Below are positions 22,736-32,850 of a stretch of DNA of 32,850 bases, one piece after another. The position numbers and the translations under genes were made by a program. The notes under the pieces are model-generated. The model had not been told where the DNA came from and ran no database searches. It saw only the letters and a program-made list of their open reading frames with translations. Source of the stretch: a virus. Position 1 is the stretch's first letter, and every line of letters starts with the position of its first letter. The DNA lies in the IMG/VR virus record IMGVR_UViG_3300045965_000135, positions 1 through 32,850 of that record; one strand, given 5' to 3'.

Positions 22736-24526
22736 TTACTTTTTTGTGCGCCGCACCGGCGTTACCGTCTGATAGAACCGGAAGCCCGGCCACTGCAGCG
22801 TGTCGTGATCGGCGGCCGCGCGTTTCTTCAGCGCATCGGCATCGCCGGCGAACATGGTCGACGGGATGATCGGGAGTTCGATCGCGAGCGCCCGCAACTT
22901 GGCCGCGATCATGTGCGTCGCAGGGCTCTGGCCGCCCGCCACGGTGAGATCGCCGGCCTCGACCATTTGTGCTATCTCGCGAAAGATGTCGGGCCTGGCG
23001 GCCGCCAGCAGCGCGTCTTTCATGTCCGTGATTTCCCCGGCCCAGCCTTCGCGAGTGCCCAGGCCGGCCACCTCCGCGGCGGGCGCCTGCAGGGCCGCTG
23101 GGGCTTCGATAGGCACCGGGACGGGTTCGACCGCGCGCGCTTGCTCGATGAGGTCGGCTGCGGCCGCGGGGCGGCCCGCCTGGGCCGCCTTGGCGGCCTC
23201 GTCGGCCAGGCGTCGCCGTTCGGCCGCCGCCTCGAGCGCCGCCTTCTGCTCCGCTTCCCGTTGCCGCCGATCCGCCTCGAGCTTGGCCTGGCGATCGGCC
23301 TCCTCGAGCTCGCGCTTGCGGGTCGTGTAGCGCCGAGCCGCGATCTCCCCGCCAGTCTTCCAGCCCTGGACGACGCGCCGCCGTACTGCATAGACGCGGT
23401 CCAAGTACCCCCGCGGCTTCCGGATCGCCGGCTCGAACACCGCTTCAATCGCCGCTTCCTGTTCCTTCGCGAACAAGGATTGTTCGCCGAGCCAGGCCAG
23501 TTCTTTGGCCGTGACGATGGACGCCGCCTGCATCGCTGCGGCGAACTGCTGCGCCGCCGCTTCATACGGCGCCACGGCCGCCTCGAGCATCGCCAGGTAC
23601 GCGTCGATGTCGGGTGTAATGACGAGTTCGCGAATCGCCGGCGGGCCAGTTGGCTCGGGCGGCAGCACCTCGGCACGCGCCGCCGCCGGCGGCGGTGGCT
23701 CGTCGGGCAGATCGAACACCGAGATCGGCGGAACAGGCAGCGGCGGGCCGAGGTCGGGCAAATCGAACAGCGCCGCACCCGGTAGCGGATCCTCCTCGGG
23801 TAGTTCGATGGGAGGTTCAATGGGGCGATGTGAATCAGCCATCGGGATCCTCCAGTCCGCCGTCGGCGCGGCGTACGCGCGCTCGAGGACGTCACGAAAA
23901 TCACGGGCGTCGGTCGCATCGTCGCGAAAGACGTGGACGATGTACCGGCCGTCGGCGGTGAGCTGCACCGCCCAGCGTTCGATGTCGATCGCAATCAGCT
24001 GCGGATACTGCTGGTAGAGCGCATCGAGGTAGCCGAGTGTTTGCATCCGTGCCAGCTCCGGAATCCCGGTCTTGAGGTCGAGCAGCACAATCCGCCGCCG
24101 GTCGACGCGACAGAGGAAATCGAGCTTCCCGATGTAGGGCCGCCGGCGCCGTGGCGTCAGCCCGAGGTCGCGGGAACAGACGACGCTCTCGCAGAGGATC
24201 GGTTCCACCTGGCGACTCGCGCGAAACCATCGCCAGGCGGCAAAGGGCTGCTGCACGTCCTCAGCGACGGACGATTCAACGAGGTCGTGTTCGGCGTCGT
24301 AATGGGCCGCCGCATGCACGGCCGTCCCGATCTGCGCCTTCCGCTGCAGGACGTCAGGCGGCACGCCGGCGAACCGATTCGGATAGGCGAGATCGAGCGA
24401 CTGCGTGACGCTGGGCACGCGCCGGCGATCGAGGTGATGCCGCCGGCCGACCAGGTCATACTCAGCGCCCTCGAGCCACGAGGGATTCGGCATCAGCTGC
24501 AGCATCGCGGTAAACTGTCCCGTCAT
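22736..24526 (-). CDS. PD-(D/E)XK nuclease fused to coiled-coil region
   Basis: A 596-residue protein from ATG 24526, which has AGGTGG 6 bases upstream. ATG 24562 would add 12 residues but lacks a ribosome-binding site. The N-terminal RecB/Cas4-like nuclease has GTAVHAAAHYD (His71), YIGKLDFLC (Asp136), LLDLKTG (Asp150, Lys152) and MQTLGYLDALYQQYP. A Pro-rich linker (about 240-310) follows. Then comes a helical and coiled-coil region (about 310-480, with LEEADRQAKLEADRRQREAEQ) like small proteins usually encoded separately beside recT, and a C-terminus with THMIAAKLRALAIELP. It is likely the exonuclease that makes 3' single strands for RecT. The fusion is unusual. Confidence 0.82.
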   Translation of the reverse strand: MTGQFTAMLQLMPNPSWLEGAEYDLVGRRHHLDRRRVPSVTQSLDLAYPNRFAGVPPDVLQRKAQIGTAVHAAAHYDAEHDLVESSVAEDVQQPFAAWRWFRASRQVEPILCESVVCSRDLGLTPRRRRPYIGKLDFLCRVDRRRIVLLDLKTGIPELARMQTLGYLDALYQQYPQLIAIDIERWAVQLTADGRYIVHVFRDDATDARDFRDVLERAYAAPTADWRIPMADSHRPIEPPIELPEEDPLPGAALFDLPDLGPPLPVPPISVFDLPDEPPPPAAARAEVLPPEPTGPPAIRELVITPDIDAYLAMLEAAVAPYEAAAQQFAAAMQAASIVTAKELAWLGEQSLFAKEQEAAIEAVFEPAIRKPRGYLDRVYAVRRRVVQGWKTGGEIAARRYTTRKRELEEADRQAKLEADRRQREAEQKAALEAAAERRRLADEAAKAAQAGRPAAAADLIEQARAVEPVPVPIEAPAALQAPAAEVAGLGTREGWAGEITDMKDALLAAARPDIFREIAQMVEAGDLTVAGGQSPATHMIAAKLRALAIELPIIPSTMFAGDADALKKRAAADHDTLQWPGFRFYQTVTPVRRTKK

Positions 24527-24623
24527 GCTGTCCCACCTGTCGCCACGCCAACTCGACGCCATGATCTGGATCGGACTGGCCTTGATGCTGCTCGCCGCCG
24601 TCCTCTACGCATGGAAATCCTGA
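24525..24623 (+). CDS. Tiny membrane protein, plus strand
   Basis: A 32-residue ORF, MLSHLSPRQLDAMIWIGLAL then MLLAAVLYAWKS. It has one transmembrane helix near the C-terminus. Its ATG overlaps, on the other strand, the proposed ATG of the nuclease (CATG at 24524-24527), so the two start divergently from the same bases. No strong ribosome-binding site is seen. The only support is its hydrophobic pattern and the absence of any minus-strand gene from 24527 to 24729. Confidence 0.45.
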   Translation: MLSHLSPRQLDAMIWIGLALMLLAAVLYAWKS

Positions 24624-24733
24624 TCGGCGTTCTGGGACTCATCATTTCGATCCTCGGCCTCTTTTCCCGCACCGATCAGCTCCTGCGCGAGATTCGCGAC
24701 CTGCTGCGCGAGATTCGCGACCACCAGCGTTAA
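24611..24733 (+). CDS. Tiny membrane-anchored amphipathic-helix protein, plus strand
   Basis: A 40-residue ORF. The N-terminus is a hydrophobic helix (MEILIGVLGLIISILGLF), followed by an amphipathic heptad-like repeat (LLREIRDLLREIRD). The repeat comes from an 18-bp duplication (CTGCGCGAGATTCGCGAC at 24683 and 24704). It overlaps the preceding tiny ORF by 13 bases. Its TAA overlaps the TAA of the convergent gene at the palindrome TTAA (24730-24733). The layout resembles holin-like or membrane-tethered oligomers. Function unknown. Confidence 0.55.
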   Translation: MEILIGVLGLIISILGLFSRTDQLLREIRDLLREIRDHQR

Positions 24734-24951
24734 TCCGCCTGAATGGTGATGGCCAATTCCTCGCAGAGTTGTTCGACGGTCCAGCCCGCCTGCACGGCAT
24801 CGGTGACGACGTCATCGAAGGCGCCCGACTCGACGCCGAGCTCACACGTGAGGCCGTATTCGATGACGGCGAGCGCGTCATAGAGCCCACGCCCGGCCGA
24901 GAGCAGGTCGTGCACGCGCCGCGCGGCGTCCGCCGTCAGTGTCGTTTTCAT
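24730..24951 (-). CDS. Small helical protein, unknown
   Basis: A 73-residue protein, ATG 24951 overlapping the recT stop (ATGA). It is acidic and helical: MKTTLTADAARRVHDLLSAG, YDALAVIEYGLTCELGVE, and GWTVEQLCEELAITIQ at the end. It resembles small phage proteins in recombination or early modules that have no known role. Translation is probably coupled to RecT. Confidence 0.65.
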   Translation of the reverse strand: MKTTLTADAARRVHDLLSAGRGLYDALAVIEYGLTCELGVESGAFDDVVTDAVQAGWTVEQLCEELAITIQAD

Positions 24952-26069
24952 GATTCGAGCGCGGTGAGTTTCCGCCGGCCCTGCGTGTCGGCCGGGTCCG
25001 CGGTGATCGTGCGCAACTGCCCCTTCGCCGCCACGAGCTGTGCGCCGAGCGCGGCATCGCGGGTCCAGACGCGCAGGCCGCCCTGCGTGAACGCGGCCCA
25101 CCCAGTGCCTACCGGCGCGACATCCACGATGCGATCGATCACCGTGCCGGTCGCCGGCGGCGGCGGCTGGGATTGTTGTGATGATGATGATGATGATGAT
25201 GATGACGTCGCGACCGAGGCGCGTTGTGGCATCTCGATGACCTCGCCCGTCTCCTCGTCGATGCTGTCCCCCTCGAGCACCGCGGTGGCCTCGGCCTGCG
25301 GATCGGCGAGCAGCGCCAGATCCTGCGGCAACCCGGCCTCGGCGGCATCGTCCAGGCCAGCGGCTCGCTGGATCTCGACCGACATCGGCGCCAGCTTCAG
25401 CAGTTGCTTCAGGCTGGTCTTCTTCCACATCCACGCTTCATCGGTGAACCAGGGCGAATCCCGCTTGCCAAACTTGATGCCGGCCTGATAGGCCTGCGAG
25501 CGGTCCCGAATGGCGTAGACCTGGCGGCGATTCATGACGTTGAGGTCATAGCCGCCGTCTTTCAAGCGATAGAACGAATAGGCGTAGACCAGCGCGCCTG
25601 GATCCCCGTCGCCCTCGAACGGCACGTGGTCGACGCTGGGCGACAGGCCGCGAATCTGCTTGAACGCATCCCGCTCGTACACGGCATCGGCACCGATCGT
25701 CGACACCTCACCGGAGCGCCGCGCCAACGTGATCAGGCCCCGGTAGCCGATCTGGAATTGCGCCTCGAGGACGTTCTTTTTCTTGTTGTCGTACGGAATC
25801 AGATACGCCTGGCCGAGGAACCCATCGGGCACGAGGCCGAGCTGGGCGCACTGCAGGACGGCCCCGAGAAACGAGATGCTCGAGCACTGCGCCAGCTTCG
25901 GATTCCGCTGCACCGCCGTCAGCACCACGCGCATGAAATACGCCGGTGTGATGTGCCGCGGCAGGGCGGCGAGGATTTCGGCCTGCTTGTCCTGCAACAA
26001 ATGGCGCACCGTGTAGGGCTTCGCGGGGGCCGGCTCTGTTTTGGCGGGCACGGGGGCGGTAGGTGTCAT
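24948..26069 (-). CDS. recT: RecT single-strand annealing protein
   Basis: A 373-residue protein. The core matches the RecT family: LPRHITPAYFMRVVLTAVQRNP, SSISFLGAVLQCAQLGLVPDG, GQAYLIPYDN, QFQIGYRGLITLARRSG, then PWFTDEAWMWKKTSLKQLLKL. RecT coats single strands and anneals or invades homologous DNA. The partner nuclease is the fusion protein encoded further downstream. The C-terminal third is extended, with a run of nine TCA Ser codons, then QQ and PPPP, and a beta-rich domain that is not part of the usual family. Confidence 0.93.
   Translation of the reverse strand: MTPTAPVPAKTEPAPAKPYTVRHLLQDKQAEILAALPRHITPAYFMRVVLTAVQRNPKLAQCSSISFLGAVLQCAQLGLVPDGFLGQAYLIPYDNKKKNVLEAQFQIGYRGLITLARRSGEVSTIGADAVYERDAFKQIRGLSPSVDHVPFEGDGDPGALVYAYSFYRLKDGGYDLNVMNRRQVYAIRDRSQAYQAGIKFGKRDSPWFTDEAWMWKKTSLKQLLKLAPMSVEIQRAAGLDDAAEAGLPQDLALLADPQAEATAVLEGDSIDEETGEVIEMPQRASVATSSSSSSSSSQQSQPPPPATGTVIDRIVDVAPVGTGWAAFTQGGLRVWTRDAALGAQLVAAKGQLRTITADPADTQGRRKLTALES
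25179..25205. repeat. Trinucleotide microsatellite (TGA)9 within recT
   Basis: Nine perfect TGA units on the plus strand, read as TCA (Ser) codons in recT. It marks a flexible linker between the RecT core and its C-terminal extension. Its length could vary by slippage without shifting the frame. Confidence 0.9.
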
Positions 26070-26075
26070 TGCCGA

Positions 26076-26726
26076 TCACTCCTCAGGTAAATCGAAGGCG
26101 TAGAGATCAACACCCACGACTTGGGTGCGAGTCCTGGCGCCAACTTTGCTAGAGAGCGCTTCCGCCGTCCGTTTCCACTGATCCCTTTCCAGCCGCGCCA
26201 CGTGTGAAGCCAAACGTTCTTGCTCCAGTTCGGCGGCGAGAAACGCCTGCAGTGATGGATCGCGCTTCACATATTCCGACCACACAACTCGATCGGCGAT
26301 TCCGTCTGCGGGCTTCGTTTGTGCCTGATTCCACCAGTCAGCGAAACGCTGCCGATATGCCTCAATGGACAGCGTCTCAGCCTTCAGTAATCCCGCGTTT
26401 GGTTCAGAGAAAAAGACAGTCAGTTCTACGCTTTCCAGTCCTTCACACTGGCGTACAAGCCAGACGGTCGTGCGCGGTTGCCTGGCGAGATCGGACAGCG
26501 CCCACCATTGCCCGTTCGAACACTCCTCACGGGGACGTTTGAATTCTTGGAACAGAAATCGCCGCGATAGTCCGTCATGAGTGAGCGCACGGACCACTAG
26601 CCGATCGATGTCCGTAAAGGAGCTGCCGCGATGCCCGATGCCGGCGAGGACGCTATCAAACCAATTCGAAATCGGATCCAGATCGTAGTTACACTCCGGA
26701 CAATGGCTGCCTCGCAATTGCGTCAC
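26076..26726 (-). CDS. Small PD-(D/E)XK-like nuclease with zinc knuckle
   Basis: A 216-residue protein. The GTG start at 26726 forms GTGA with the methyltransferase stop, and GTG 26738 is possible. The N-terminus has CPEC (Cys9/12). Then SSFTDIDRLVV (Asp39/41) and FLFQEFKRPREE (Glu61-x-Lys63), followed by GQWWALSDLARQ, follow the D...E-x-K...Q order of PD-(D/E)XK nucleases such as the VRR type. The C-terminal half is helical. It is likely a recombination or host-DNA nuclease. The family assignment is inference from motif order. Confidence 0.6.
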   Translation of the reverse strand: MTQLRGSHCPECNYDLDPISNWFDSVLAGIGHRGSSFTDIDRLVVRALTHDGLSRRFLFQEFKRPREECSNGQWWALSDLARQPRTTVWLVRQCEGLESVELTVFFSEPNAGLLKAETLSIEAYRQRFADWWNQAQTKPADGIADRVVWSEYVKRDPSLQAFLAAELEQERLASHVARLERDQWKRTAEALSSKVGARTRTQVVGVDLYAFDLPEE

Positions 26727-27427
26727 GGCTTCACCCACACCACGCCAAACGGTTCAAACTCCCGCTGAAATGCTGCGATGTCCGTGCCGAGATAGAGCAC
26801 CGCCTGGCCCTGTAACGGCGCGGCGGTGTCCTTCTTCGGATGCCAGAAGCGAATGCGACCCTGCGGGAAGCACACGGCCGAGGCCACTTCCGCTAAGGCG
26901 CGGAACCAGACTGTTTCTGTCGCGTTGTTGACGAGCGCCAGCGCCGCGGGCACATCGCCCGTTTGCACACTAGCCGAGAGCTTTTCTGCGAATTGTTCGA
27001 TCAGCGGTTGCACGTACGGCGGGTTCATCCAGACGCGACCGGTCCAGACTTTCGTGAGCCCGTCATCTCTCGCGCTATAGAACCGTGTTGCCTTGATAAT
27101 GCGATTCGCCTCGGCCGTCGATGCGGGATCGAGATCGATCGCACCGAGCACGCGGCGAGCGGCCTCGATGTAGTCGCCAGGCGTGAACCATTCCGTCTCG
27201 CCGGCGTTCTGGCCAACATGTGCAATGGATTCGAATTCGAGGATCTTCGAATACTTCGCCATCGCCGCCGCATATGCCGCTTCAAACTGCTCCGGCTCAC
27301 CGAGCTTCTGCCGCCAGCGGGAGATTTCCATAAGACTCGTGCCTAATTGCCGCGCAATCTCTTCAGCCGTTCCTGAAAAAGAGATAACCGACCCGTTATC
27401 TCTTTTTGCCACGACCGCGCCTCCCAT
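26723..27427 (-). CDS. Phage DNA N6-adenine methyltransferase with N-terminal helix-turn-helix
   Basis: A 234-residue protein. Residues 15-45 (ISFSGTAEEIARQLGTSLMEISRWRQKLG) form a helix-turn-helix. Residues 79-234 match phage Dam-type methyltransferases: EWFTPGDYIEAARRVLG, IDLDPAST, the catalytic NPPY at 135-138 (VWMNPPYVQPLIEQF) and a final GVVWVKP. It would methylate adenine, with recognition site unknown, to mark or protect phage DNA. ATG 27427 lies inside the upstream gene's 3' end, a 32-base overlap. Confidence 0.85.
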   Translation of the reverse strand: MGGAVVAKRDNGSVISFSGTAEEIARQLGTSLMEISRWRQKLGEPEQFEAAYAAAMAKYSKILEFESIAHVGQNAGETEWFTPGDYIEAARRVLGAIDLDPASTAEANRIIKATRFYSARDDGLTKVWTGRVWMNPPYVQPLIEQFAEKLSASVQTGDVPAALALVNNATETVWFRALAEVASAVCFPQGRIRFWHPKKDTAAPLQGQAVLYLGTDIAAFQREFEPFGVVWVKP

Positions 27428-27647
27428 GATTGGTCCCCGGCCCCTGCGTATCCCACCAGGCCACGAATTCCGCTTGTGCCTCGAGTTTGGCGCGAATGGC
27501 TTTCTCGAGGCCGGTCGCATCCTTTGCACGGGCATAATGCTTTTCGATGCCTTCGAGCACGGCGATCGTCTTGACGCCCTTCTGCGGGTTGTACTTCGAG
27601 AGATCGCCTCGGGGCTGACGCATCGGATGTTGAGCGGGTTTTCTCAC
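27396..27647 (-). CDS. Small basic protein, unknown
   Basis: An 83-residue protein if started at GTG 27647, or 75 if at ATG 27623. Neither has a strong ribosome-binding site. The central RPRGDLSKYNPQ-like segment (QPRGDLSKYNPQKGVKTIAV) and EKHYARAKDATGLEKAIRAKLEAQAEF look conserved, and the tail is Arg/Lys-rich (GRRGRGKKR). It may bind nucleic acid. No family is recognised. It overlaps the methyltransferase start by 32 bases. Confidence 0.6.
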   Translation of the reverse strand: MRKPAQHPMRQPRGDLSKYNPQKGVKTIAVLEGIEKHYARAKDATGLEKAIRAKLEAQAEFVAWWDTQGPGTNHGRRGRGKKR

Positions 27648-27835: not shown

Positions 27836-28144
27836 TCAGACGGTGGAATGATCGAGACGGTCGCCGCAGACCGAACACGGCAGCGTGGCGTAATGGCTCT
27901 CGGCGAACACCGGGCTGTGGCGCGGTGTCGGTTGCGTCGGCGCACAGGCTCGGCAATACAGCGCGCCGCCGTGCACCTGGCCCTTTTCGTACCAGCCGAC
28001 CTGCACGGCCGGCGCGATCGGTTCGGCGAAGCCGAGGCCCATCACCTCGCCGACGCGTTGCGTCCACCGGTCCTCGGCCGCGGCATCGGCATCCTCGCGC
28101 CGGCGCCGGCGGATGGCGGCGCGTTGGCGATCACTGAGCGTCAT
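27836..28144 (-). CDS. Small zinc-binding-like protein, unknown
   Basis: A 102-residue protein with ATG 28144 overlapping the upstream stop (ATGA). The first 35 residues are a charged helix (RQRAAIRRRRREDADAAAEDRW). The second half has CRAC and CSVC pairs separated by about 24 residues (YCRACAPTQPTP, LPCSVCGDRLD), suggesting one zinc site. It probably binds nucleic acid or a protein partner. No family is recognised. It is part of the early leftward operon. Confidence 0.6.
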   Translation of the reverse strand: MTLSDRQRAAIRRRRREDADAAAEDRWTQRVGEVMGLGFAEPIAPAVQVGWYEKGQVHGGALYCRACAPTQPTPRHSPVFAESHYATLPCSVCGDRLDHSTV

Positions 28145-28500
28145 CGGCGCCCTCGTGCGGATGCCTGCGCTCGGCCGGCGATATCGCGGCGCTGCGCCTC
28201 GAGGTGATCGTCAATCACACCCAGCCGCACCAACGTCGATGTGCCGCGTTTGATAATCGGAAGATCGTGCCGCTTGACGTAGCAGTACGCCGCGTTCGCT
28301 GGGTCGGGACTGTCGGACGCGGTATAGCGCAGATACTCGGCCAACTCCTTCATCGTCAGCAGGCGCGATCGTCGCTCGGCCTCGGCCCGCGCGATCGCCG
28401 GGTCGACAGGCGGCGTAGACCTGGCGGGTGCCGGCACGCTGCGGGGCCTCGTCGTGCGCAGCGGAGCCACGGCGACGGGAAAGCGGACGCGCGGTTTCAT
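28141..28500 (-). CDS. Excisionase/MerR-like helix-turn-helix protein
   Basis: A 119-residue protein with ATG 28500 overlapping the repressor stop (ATGA). The N-terminus is basic and Pro-rich (residues 1-45). Then LLTMKELAEYLRYTASDSPD, AAYCYVKRHDLPIIKRGTSTLVR resembles the helix-turn-helix-wing of excisionase-type proteins (HTH_17), in which the wing ends with a short strand and LV-R. It could be the excision factor for the integrase or an early regulator. It is the second gene from the leftward promoter. Confidence 0.65.
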   Translation of the reverse strand: MKPRVRFPVAVAPLRTTRPRSVPAPARSTPPVDPAIARAEAERRSRLLTMKELAEYLRYTASDSPDPANAAYCYVKRHDLPIIKRGTSTLVRLGVIDDHLEAQRRDIAGRAQASARGRR

Positions 28501-29767: not shown

Positions 29768-30862
29768 ATGGGCGTCTACACACGACCGAACTCCCCGTAT
29801 CTCTGTATCAAGTTGCCTGGTCGGAAGGGTGCCCGCTGGACGACTGATATCCCGAAGGACGGCGGCACGCCGAAACAGACGGCCGAGAATTGGAAGCTGG
29901 CGCAATCGATTTACAACGTCCGCATCGGCGACAACGAGCGGGTGCAATATGACCTGCCGCCGCGCGAACGCCCCACAGCACGCACGTTCAAACAGCAACG
30001 CGACTGGTACGCCGAGCATCACACCAGCAAGCACCGCGGGGCACTATCGGAAACGCGCAAGCTTGAGCGGCTGGGCACGTTCTTCGACAGCTATGCACTC
30101 GAAGCGATCACACCGCGGCTCTGGACGGAATACGAAACGGAGCGGATGACGACGGACAAGGTGGCGCGGAACACCGTCGGCCGCGAGCTCGCGATCATGA
30201 AGTGCGTCCTCAACAGCGCCGTTGGCGAATACATCGAGTTCCATCGACTCGGCCAGGTCAAGCGCACCACCACGAAGCTAGCCGCCAAGCGCACGATCAC
30301 CGCCGAGGAGGAGGAATCATTCCTCGCGGCCCTGCGGCGCATCGATCCGGAATTGGCGGATATGTATCTGGTCGGCGTTGGCACGCTGCTGCGGCAAGAG
30401 GCACTGGTGTACCTGCAGCGTAGTGAGTATCGCGGGGACCGCCTGGCGCTGCAGACGAAGACCGGCCCGCATCAACTCCTGCTGACCGGACCGACCGCAC
30501 TGCAGCGTCGCGCACACGAGGTGCTTAAGCGGCGATTGCCCACCAAACCAGACGGCTTTTTCTTCCCGCGCTGGAAGGCGACGTTTCTTCCCTATGACGA
30601 CCCGGGCCATCCCGGCGTGCTATTGCGGAAGAAAGTGCAACGGGCCGCGAAGGCCGCCGGGTTGCCATGGGGACTCAAGAACGGCGGCATCGTGTGGCAC
30701 ACGGCGACGCGCGCCAGCGGCGCGACGCGCATGATTCGCGAATACGGGATCGATGTGCGGACGGTGCAACTGATTGGCGGCTGGAAATCCCTCGATCAGA
30801 TGGCCGAGTACTTGGGCCTGGCACTGGACCTCGCGAACGTGGCCGGGAAGAGACCCGCGTGA
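29768..30862 (+). CDS. int: Tyrosine integrase
   Basis: A 364-residue protein. Residues 1-30 (MGVYTRPNSPYLCIKLPGRK) resemble the three-stranded arm-DNA-binding domain. A helical core-binding domain covers about 70-165. The catalytic domain has Arg209 (GTLLRQEAL), Lys231 (LQTKTG), His311 and Arg315 (WHTATRASGAT), Trp339 in the place of the second His (IGGWKS) and nucleophile Tyr348 (AEYLGL). The box between His311 and Arg315 is one residue longer than the usual H-x-x-R. A GGAGG lies 12 bases before the ATG. It should integrate the phage at the tRNA site whose attP lies 400 bases downstream. Confidence 0.9.
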   Translation: MGVYTRPNSPYLCIKLPGRKGARWTTDIPKDGGTPKQTAENWKLAQSIYNVRIGDNERVQYDLPPRERPTARTFKQQRDWYAEHHTSKHRGALSETRKLERLGTFFDSYALEAITPRLWTEYETERMTTDKVARNTVGRELAIMKCVLNSAVGEYIEFHRLGQVKRTTTKLAAKRTITAEEEESFLAALRRIDPELADMYLVGVGTLLRQEALVYLQRSEYRGDRLALQTKTGPHQLLLTGPTALQRRAHEVLKRRLPTKPDGFFFPRWKATFLPYDDPGHPGVLLRKKVQRAAKAAGLPWGLKNGGIVWHTATRASGATRMIREYGIDVRTVQLIGGWKSLDQMAEYLGLALDLANVAGKRPA

Positions 30863-30912: not shown

Positions 30913-31164
30913 ATGCCATACATCGACAAACGCCAGCAAAACGCCGCTAAAACGCGCTCCCGCGCCAAGCAGATGGCCGAGGGCCGATGCATCCGCTGCG
31001 GCGACAGCAATGATCGCCCGACCGTGAATCGCCGGCTCTGTACGGCATGCGGCAGGAAGGACGCGCGGGAGAAGCACGCCGCCCGTGCACTCCAGACGCA
31101 GCAGCTCGCCGCCGCGATGCAGCTCTTTGCCAACCTCCAGAAAAGACGGAAGGGCGGAAAGTAA
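30913..31164 (+). CDS. Small zinc-finger protein between integrase and attP
   Basis: An 83-residue protein. It is basic, with a Cys4 motif CIRCGDSND at about 26-34 and LCTACGRKD at about 43-51, and a long basic helix after it (AREKHAARALQTQQLAAAMQLF). This type of small Cys4 protein with RCxxCG is common in phage genomes, with no proven role. Placed between int and attP, it may be a recombination cofactor or belong to the lysogeny module. The inference is positional. Confidence 0.65.
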   Translation: MPYIDKRQQNAAKTRSRAKQMAEGRCIRCGDSNDRPTVNRRLCTACGRKDAREKHAARALQTQQLAAAMQLFANLQKRRKGGK

Positions 31165-31165
31165 T

Positions 31166-31183
31166 GTGCAACATGTGTGCAAC
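31166..31183 (+). repeat. attP arm repeat, left (two GTGCAAC sites)
   Basis: GTGCAACATGTGTGCAAC: two direct GTGCAAC heptamers with ATGT between. Identical to 31361-31378. The two copies flank the tRNA-like core about 70-90 bases out, as arm-type integrase sites do. Confidence 0.7.
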
Positions 31184-31252
31184 ATCCACCCCTGTTTCTG
31201 CCTTGCGCTGAGGGGCGCTAAAAGCGAAAGCCAGCGAATTGCTTCGGAAAAG

Positions 31253-31301
31253 TGGCGTCCCCAAAGGGATTCGAACCCTTGTTTCAGCCTTGAAAGGGTA
31301 G
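31253..31301 (-). other. attP: attP core: 3' half of a tRNA-Glu-like gene
   Basis: The minus strand reads as the end of a tRNA. Anticodon loop CTTTCAA (31296-31290, anticodon TTC) is followed by GGCTG, then a T arm AAGGG-TTCGAAT-CCCTT, the acceptor 3' strand TGGGGAC, discriminator G and CCA (31255-31253). The expected 5' half is missing, and the 5' side of the anticodon stem pairs only at its two loop-proximal bases. This is what attP of a tRNA-integrating phage looks like, with crossover near the anticodon loop. The acceptor and T-arm match my memory of bacterial tRNA-Glu genes. An intact attP means the sequenced DNA was not integrated. Confidence 0.85.
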
Positions 31302-31360
31302 AAGTGGATCGCCGAATCGGCAATGAATACAAGCCGAAAATCACTTTCGCCTAGGGTTCT

Positions 31361-31378
31361 GTGCAACATGTGTGCAAC
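31361..31378 (+). repeat. attP arm repeat, right (two GTGCAAC sites)
   Basis: Second identical copy of GTGCAACATGTGTGCAAC, in the same orientation as the left copy, 60 bases beyond the tRNA-like core. Confidence 0.7.
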
Positions 31379-32719: not shown

Positions 32720-32850
32720 TGCTGCGCGCGCTGATGGCCGACCACGCGAAGGCGTATGACTTCCGCGCGCGCGGCCCGTTCGAAGGGCAGTACGGCGCTT
32801 TTCTCCTCGAGTCGCCCGAGGCGGGCTGGCGGCTCGCGCTCATCTGCGAC
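32719..32850 (+). CDS. Start of the DUF7694-like gene (continues at position 1)
   Basis: ATG at 32719 opens MLRALMADHAKAYDF, which continues in frame into position 1 of the window once the 127-base repeat is merged. See the 1-427 entry for its content. Confidence 0.75.
   Translation, partial: MLRALMADHAKAYDFRARGPFEGQYGAFLLESPEAGWRLALICD
32724..32850. repeat. Terminal direct repeat, right copy (assembly overlap)
   Basis: Exact copy of 1-127. Remove one copy to obtain the circular unit. Confidence 0.95.

Follow-up and report, generated by a model that had tools for sequence, protein, structure and literature searches.

Some integrases are known to cross over in the anticodon loop of tRNAs (PMC8371274; PMC3706429), and the 7-bp anticodon loop together with its stem resembles the overlap and core sites of phage lambda (PMC8371274). 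A core that starts in the anticodon loop and extends to the tRNA 3' end is a standard phage arrangement. In the mycobacteriophages of cluster J (Omega/BAKA) such a core, 44 bp long, lies within an attP downstream of int, and two pairs of 10-bp direct repeats with the consensus TGCATAC..., regarded as putative arm sites, flank it (PMC3706429). Paired putative arm sites likewise flank the core in cluster K phages, L5 and Giles; in cluster K1 they are 11 bp long, while the pairs of L5 and Giles are in direct orientation (PMC3203893).

The locus described here shares the position downstream of int, the core running from anticodon loop to 3' end, the two flanking pairs of repeats and their direct orientation. 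It was found in an IMG/VR virus record, IMGVR_UViG_3300045965_000135, whose 32,850 nucleotides were analysed over their whole length (hereafter the window). The first and last 127 nt of the window are identical (1-127 and 32724-32850), and this exact terminal repeat implies that the record is circular, with a length of about 32.7 kb; a repeat of 127 nt may correspond to an assembly k-mer length. Since the contig is circular and both arms surround one core on a single molecule, the site is an attP rather than an attL or attR, and the DNA is the excised or replicating form of the phage, as had been proposed from the sequence alone when it was read as not integrated.

We consider it very probable that the DNA is the circular excised or replicating form of a temperate, siphovirus-like phage and that this site is its complete attP, at which a lambda-type integrase would act in concert with a host tRNA-Glu(UUC) gene. 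We reach this view because relatives keep the paired-arm geometry, because a scan for that geometry across the collection led to attP-like sites beside tyrosine integrases, and because the integrase has an arm-binding type of N-terminal fold. The attP assignment made in the sequence-only reading is thus supported.

Paired repeats around a tRNA-derived core

Table 1. Features of the putative attachment locus and neighbouring genes, in window coordinates
Feature	Position	Strand	Basis or remark
Left arm block (putative), TGTGCAACATGTGTGCAAC	31165..31183	+	two GTGCAAC 11 bp apart
Right arm block (putative), TGTGCAACATGTGTGCAAC	31360..31378	+	identical to left block
attP core, tRNA-Glu(UUC) 3' half, anticodon loop to CCA	31253..31298	-	sequence, blastn, Rfam
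Anticodon loop CTTTCAA, probable 7-bp overlap (crossover) region	31290..31296	-	sequence and analogy with known integrases
Tyrosine integrase, 364 aa	29768..30862	+	PHROG integrase E 1e-23; PF00589 E 9e-5, below Pfam gathering score
Integrase domains: arm-binding-like N-terminus (residues about 1-65), core-binding, catalytic
HTH_17 protein, 119 aa, candidate recombination directionality factor (RDF)	28141..28500	-	PF12728 E 1e-4, below gathering score
Cys-rich ORF, 83 aa, zinc-ribbon-like CxxC pairs	30913..31164	+	ORF list; between int and attP

The heptamer GTGCAAC occurs on the plus strand at 31166, 31177, 31361 and 31372, forming two pairs in direct orientation, each with an 11-bp step, on either side of the core (Table 1). 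A quartet of identical k-mers at i, i+11, j and j+11 was found at this single place in the whole window, and when the window was dinucleotide-shuffled 100 times over its full length, no quartet of such geometry arose for k = 6, 7 or 8. The heptamer by itself is mildly enriched in the window (10 copies against 4.6 expected), so that the signal lies in the geometry rather than in the heptamer count; two further copies, at 30635 and 30764, fall inside int and are unpaired. The first arm begins 303 bp downstream of the integrase stop (30862). The sequence-only reading had described four heptamers around one core some 300 bases past the integrase, which this analysis bears out, and two identical flanking blocks with two GTGCAAC each, which are indeed present with a length of 19 bp in place of the 18 bp originally given. 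The exact 19-bp block is absent from IMG/VR, and a literature search that covered little older work returned no recognisable report of GTGCAAC or TGCAAC as arm sites.

On the basis of their arrangement, we regard the heptamers as putative integrase arm sites. Were they instead regulatory or replication repeats (iterons) that flank a tRNA fragment by chance, their mild enrichment in the window would be accounted for, yet the quartet adjoins int in relatives and in most of the IMG/VR matches and is absent elsewhere in the window genome, leaving this explanation with a negligible probability.

The core between the putative arms comprises 46 nt of the minus strand, 31298-31253 (CCCTTTCAAGGCTGAAACAAGGGTTCGAATCCCTTTGGGGACGCCA), which read in order through an anticodon loop (CTTTCAA, anticodon UUC), a T arm and CCA. 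The anticodon-stem pairing expected of a tRNA ends upstream of 31298, and no complete tRNA was called by ARAGORN. Against the Rfam tRNA family RF00005, the core scores 30.1 bits as a 5'-truncated match (E 2e-5; gathering score 29), and blastn against records of bacteria and the phage collection gave matches of about 87-88% over 46-49 nt, several of them annotated as tRNA-Glu. Both the position of the core and its earlier identification as a tRNA-Glu(UUC) 3' half therefore hold.

A search for a bacterial tRNA gene matching the core had been proposed earlier as a check: the likeness to tRNA-Glu was recovered by blastn, and the 45-nt core had no exact match in the contigs of 84,980 GTDB species genomes. 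A 29-nt portion of the core was likewise absent from IMG/VR, and the GTDB and IMG/VR searches found no host genome, attB, attL or attR. Given the missing exact match in GTDB, the host probably lies outside the sampled species, or its tRNA differs slightly from the core. From the identity of the core, the insertion gene is predicted to be the tRNA-Glu(UUC) gene of that host.

The integrase and its relatives

The integrase carries the catalytic residues R209, K231, H311/R315, W339 and Y348, with the histidine and arginine set in the box WHTATRA (residues 307-316, window 30686-30715), an HxxxR motif where tyrosine recombinases usually have HxxR. Because of this box, and because the PF00589 match falls below the gathering score, activity of the enzyme is not guaranteed. 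WHTATRA is invariant in all five aligned members of the family (window, L002, L009, L010 and L011). An AlphaFold2 model of the protein, built from nine aligned integrases (pLDDT 83), opens with a beta-beta-beta-alpha fold (strands 2-5, 11-15 and 23-29, helix 35-60), followed by a helical core-binding domain and a catalytic domain, and its top PDB matches in Foldseek are full-length lambda Int (1z1b, E 3e-8). As modelled, the protein thus has the three domains of a lambda-type (bivalent) integrase, and the resemblance of its N-terminus to an arm-binding domain, suggested earlier from the sequence, is backed by both the fold and the best structural match. The integrase had no tblastn match among phages and plasmids, and its catalytic domain had no relative in GTDB contigs.

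The unusual active-site motif, taken with the missing exact host match, would fit a tRNA fragment that is a captured remnant, or a site that no longer functions, in a phage that uses another site or does without integration. The tRNA 3' half is nevertheless intact, the arm blocks are identical and the int ORF is uninterrupted, and the invariance of HxxxR across five family members implies selection; we therefore hold a remnant to be highly improbable.

If the site is a working attP, the N-terminal domain of the integrase would bind the paired GTGCAAC arms while the central and catalytic domains bind the tRNA-derived core. Strand exchange with the host tRNA-Glu(UUC) gene would then take place in the 7-bp anticodon-loop segment, joining the host 5' half to the phage 3' half, so that an intact tRNA would be expressed from the host promoter, and after integration attL and attR would each hold part of the attP arms. 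For an uncultured phage, this amounts to a clear prediction of its integration site and mechanism.

In the interval between int and the attachment site, the Cys-rich ORF ends just before the left arm and possibly encodes a small DNA-binding protein; it had no match in Pfam or PHROG and is absent from the relatives. Elsewhere in the window we noted a Dam-type methyltransferase (26723-27535) and a RecT-like annealing protein with exonuclease genes (22736-26069).

The integrase of one relative, G001 (locus L002), is 59% identical to that of the window. Its attP-like region (L002:6086-6320) contains five GTGCAAC at 11-bp steps: a group of three immediately follows int, a group of two lies 196 bp beyond, and the core they surround has no recognisable tRNA (no Rfam match) and no plasmid match. 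The two genomes have int and three HTH genes in common, and the head, packaging and recombination genes tested had no match in G001. Between G001 and the window, the integration site has apparently changed while the arm code was kept. Other relatives carry other arms: G005 (IMGVR_UViG_3300020202_000071, L009:4485-4730) has TGACACG pairs with an 11-bp step, 216 bp apart, and both G006 and G008 have CAATCACGTG pairs with the same step, 199 bp apart. In these relatives the pairs surround halves of a tRNA-Arg(UCU): G006 carries the 3' half (RF00005 36.6 bits) and G005 the 5' half, which alone scores 15.6 bits; when the G005 5' half was joined in silico to the G006 3' half, ARAGORN called a full tRNA-Arg(tct). 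The two phages look as if they carry opposite halves of one tRNA. With G005 integrated, the tRNA would have to be transcribed out of the phage genome, which is reported to be rare in bacteria (PMC8371274).

Identity to the window integrase in the N-terminal domain is 61% for G001, which has the same arms, and 39-45% for G005 and G006, which have other arms, whereas the catalytic domain is evenly conserved across these relatives at 61-66%. N-terminal identity thus follows the arm sequence, as predicted if this domain recognises the arms. Among the relatives, arm code, core (and with it the target gene) and polarity vary independently, a pattern open to direct test.

This covariation has to be weighed against a reading in which the core is an attP and the 11-bp-spaced GTGCAAC repeats are bound by an excisionase (RDF) instead of the integrase. 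At attachment sites, RDFs bind direct repeats spaced by 10-11 bp, one helical turn (186 Apl and others; PMC7498355), and the HTH_17 protein, which may serve as the RDF, has a homologue 70% identical over 80 aa in G001, where the same heptamers occur; since this candidate is shared with G001, covariation of the arms with int alone is compatible with RDF binding. The arrangement of the repeats nevertheless speaks for the integrase: identical pairs stand on both sides of the core, as predicted for the integrase arms of cluster J and K phages, and the geometry recurs beside many unrelated integrases. The RDF sites of lambda-type systems are found mostly to one side of the core. We consider binding by an RDF in place of the integrase very unlikely.

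Breadth of the paired-arm design

A 28-base pattern of the GTGCAAC quartet matched four IMG/VR contigs, in all of which it lies beside an integrase. A looser TGCAAC quartet with 11-bp pairs matched 24 IMG/VR contigs, 18 of which have a nearby integrase as detected with a small HMM; with the window included, the quartet adjoins an integrase in 19 of 25 cases, and all ten of the integrases checked belong to PF00589. Among the loci so recovered (L033-L052) are attP-like sites from diverse phages with a G+C of 0.34-0.68. Cores made of tRNA or tmRNA 3' ends were seen at L005, L043 and L045 (tmRNA-like at L045). The sites at L038, L039 and L045 may be attP, and the L038 core resembles that of L050. 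Not every TGCAAC quartet is an attP: those of L037 and L040 belong to repeats of another kind, and that of L041 to a coding repeat.

When the quartet scan was repeated with one control hexamer of the same composition, no match was found, and by comparison with this single control TGCAAC would seem to be over-represented as an arm code. Of eight named phages, six have a quartet of at least seven bases beside int, with varied sequences; in one of the six, Listeria phage PSA, the quartet brackets the annotated tRNA-Arg attP. This variety argues that arms paired at one-turn spacing are a general design, of which GTGCAAC is one of several codes. The integrases at TGCAAC sites differ in their N-terminal families (Arm-DNA-bind_3, Arm-DNA-bind_4-like, or no family assigned), and the G+C of their phages is very different. 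We propose tentatively, at somewhat less than even odds, that TGCAAC pairs at 11 bp may be a recurrent arm-site code of highly diverged integrases, one that would have been conserved or gained several times over whatever the target core. In practical terms, the 11-bp paired-arm geometry can locate attP in metagenomic phage contigs without knowledge of the host.

Comparison with known attachment sites

The window attP differs from that of cluster J in its target, tRNA-Glu rather than tRNA-Leu, as well as in arm sequence and host (PMC3706429). In cluster K1, the arms are inverted between the two sides and the target is a tmRNA, and L5 has extra arm sites (PMC3203893). Listeria phage PSA (AJ312240) also has paired arm-like repeats that bracket a tRNA-Arg core beside int; its repeats, TTTGTGGTA, have a 12-bp step and lie 195 bp apart, with 15 bp of tRNA annotated, another arm sequence and a Gram-positive host. 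Compared with lambda, the window integrase shares the three domains, with 1z1b as its best structural match at about 16% sequence identity, whereas the attachment sites differ in the number, order and sequence of the arms and in the tRNA-derived core of the window, in which no IHF or Xis sites were identified. As paired direct arms around a core from anticodon loop to tRNA 3' end are already found in mycobacteriophages, the window attP belongs to a known type. It is built like the sites of well-known phages, of which it is a clear but essentially ordinary example.
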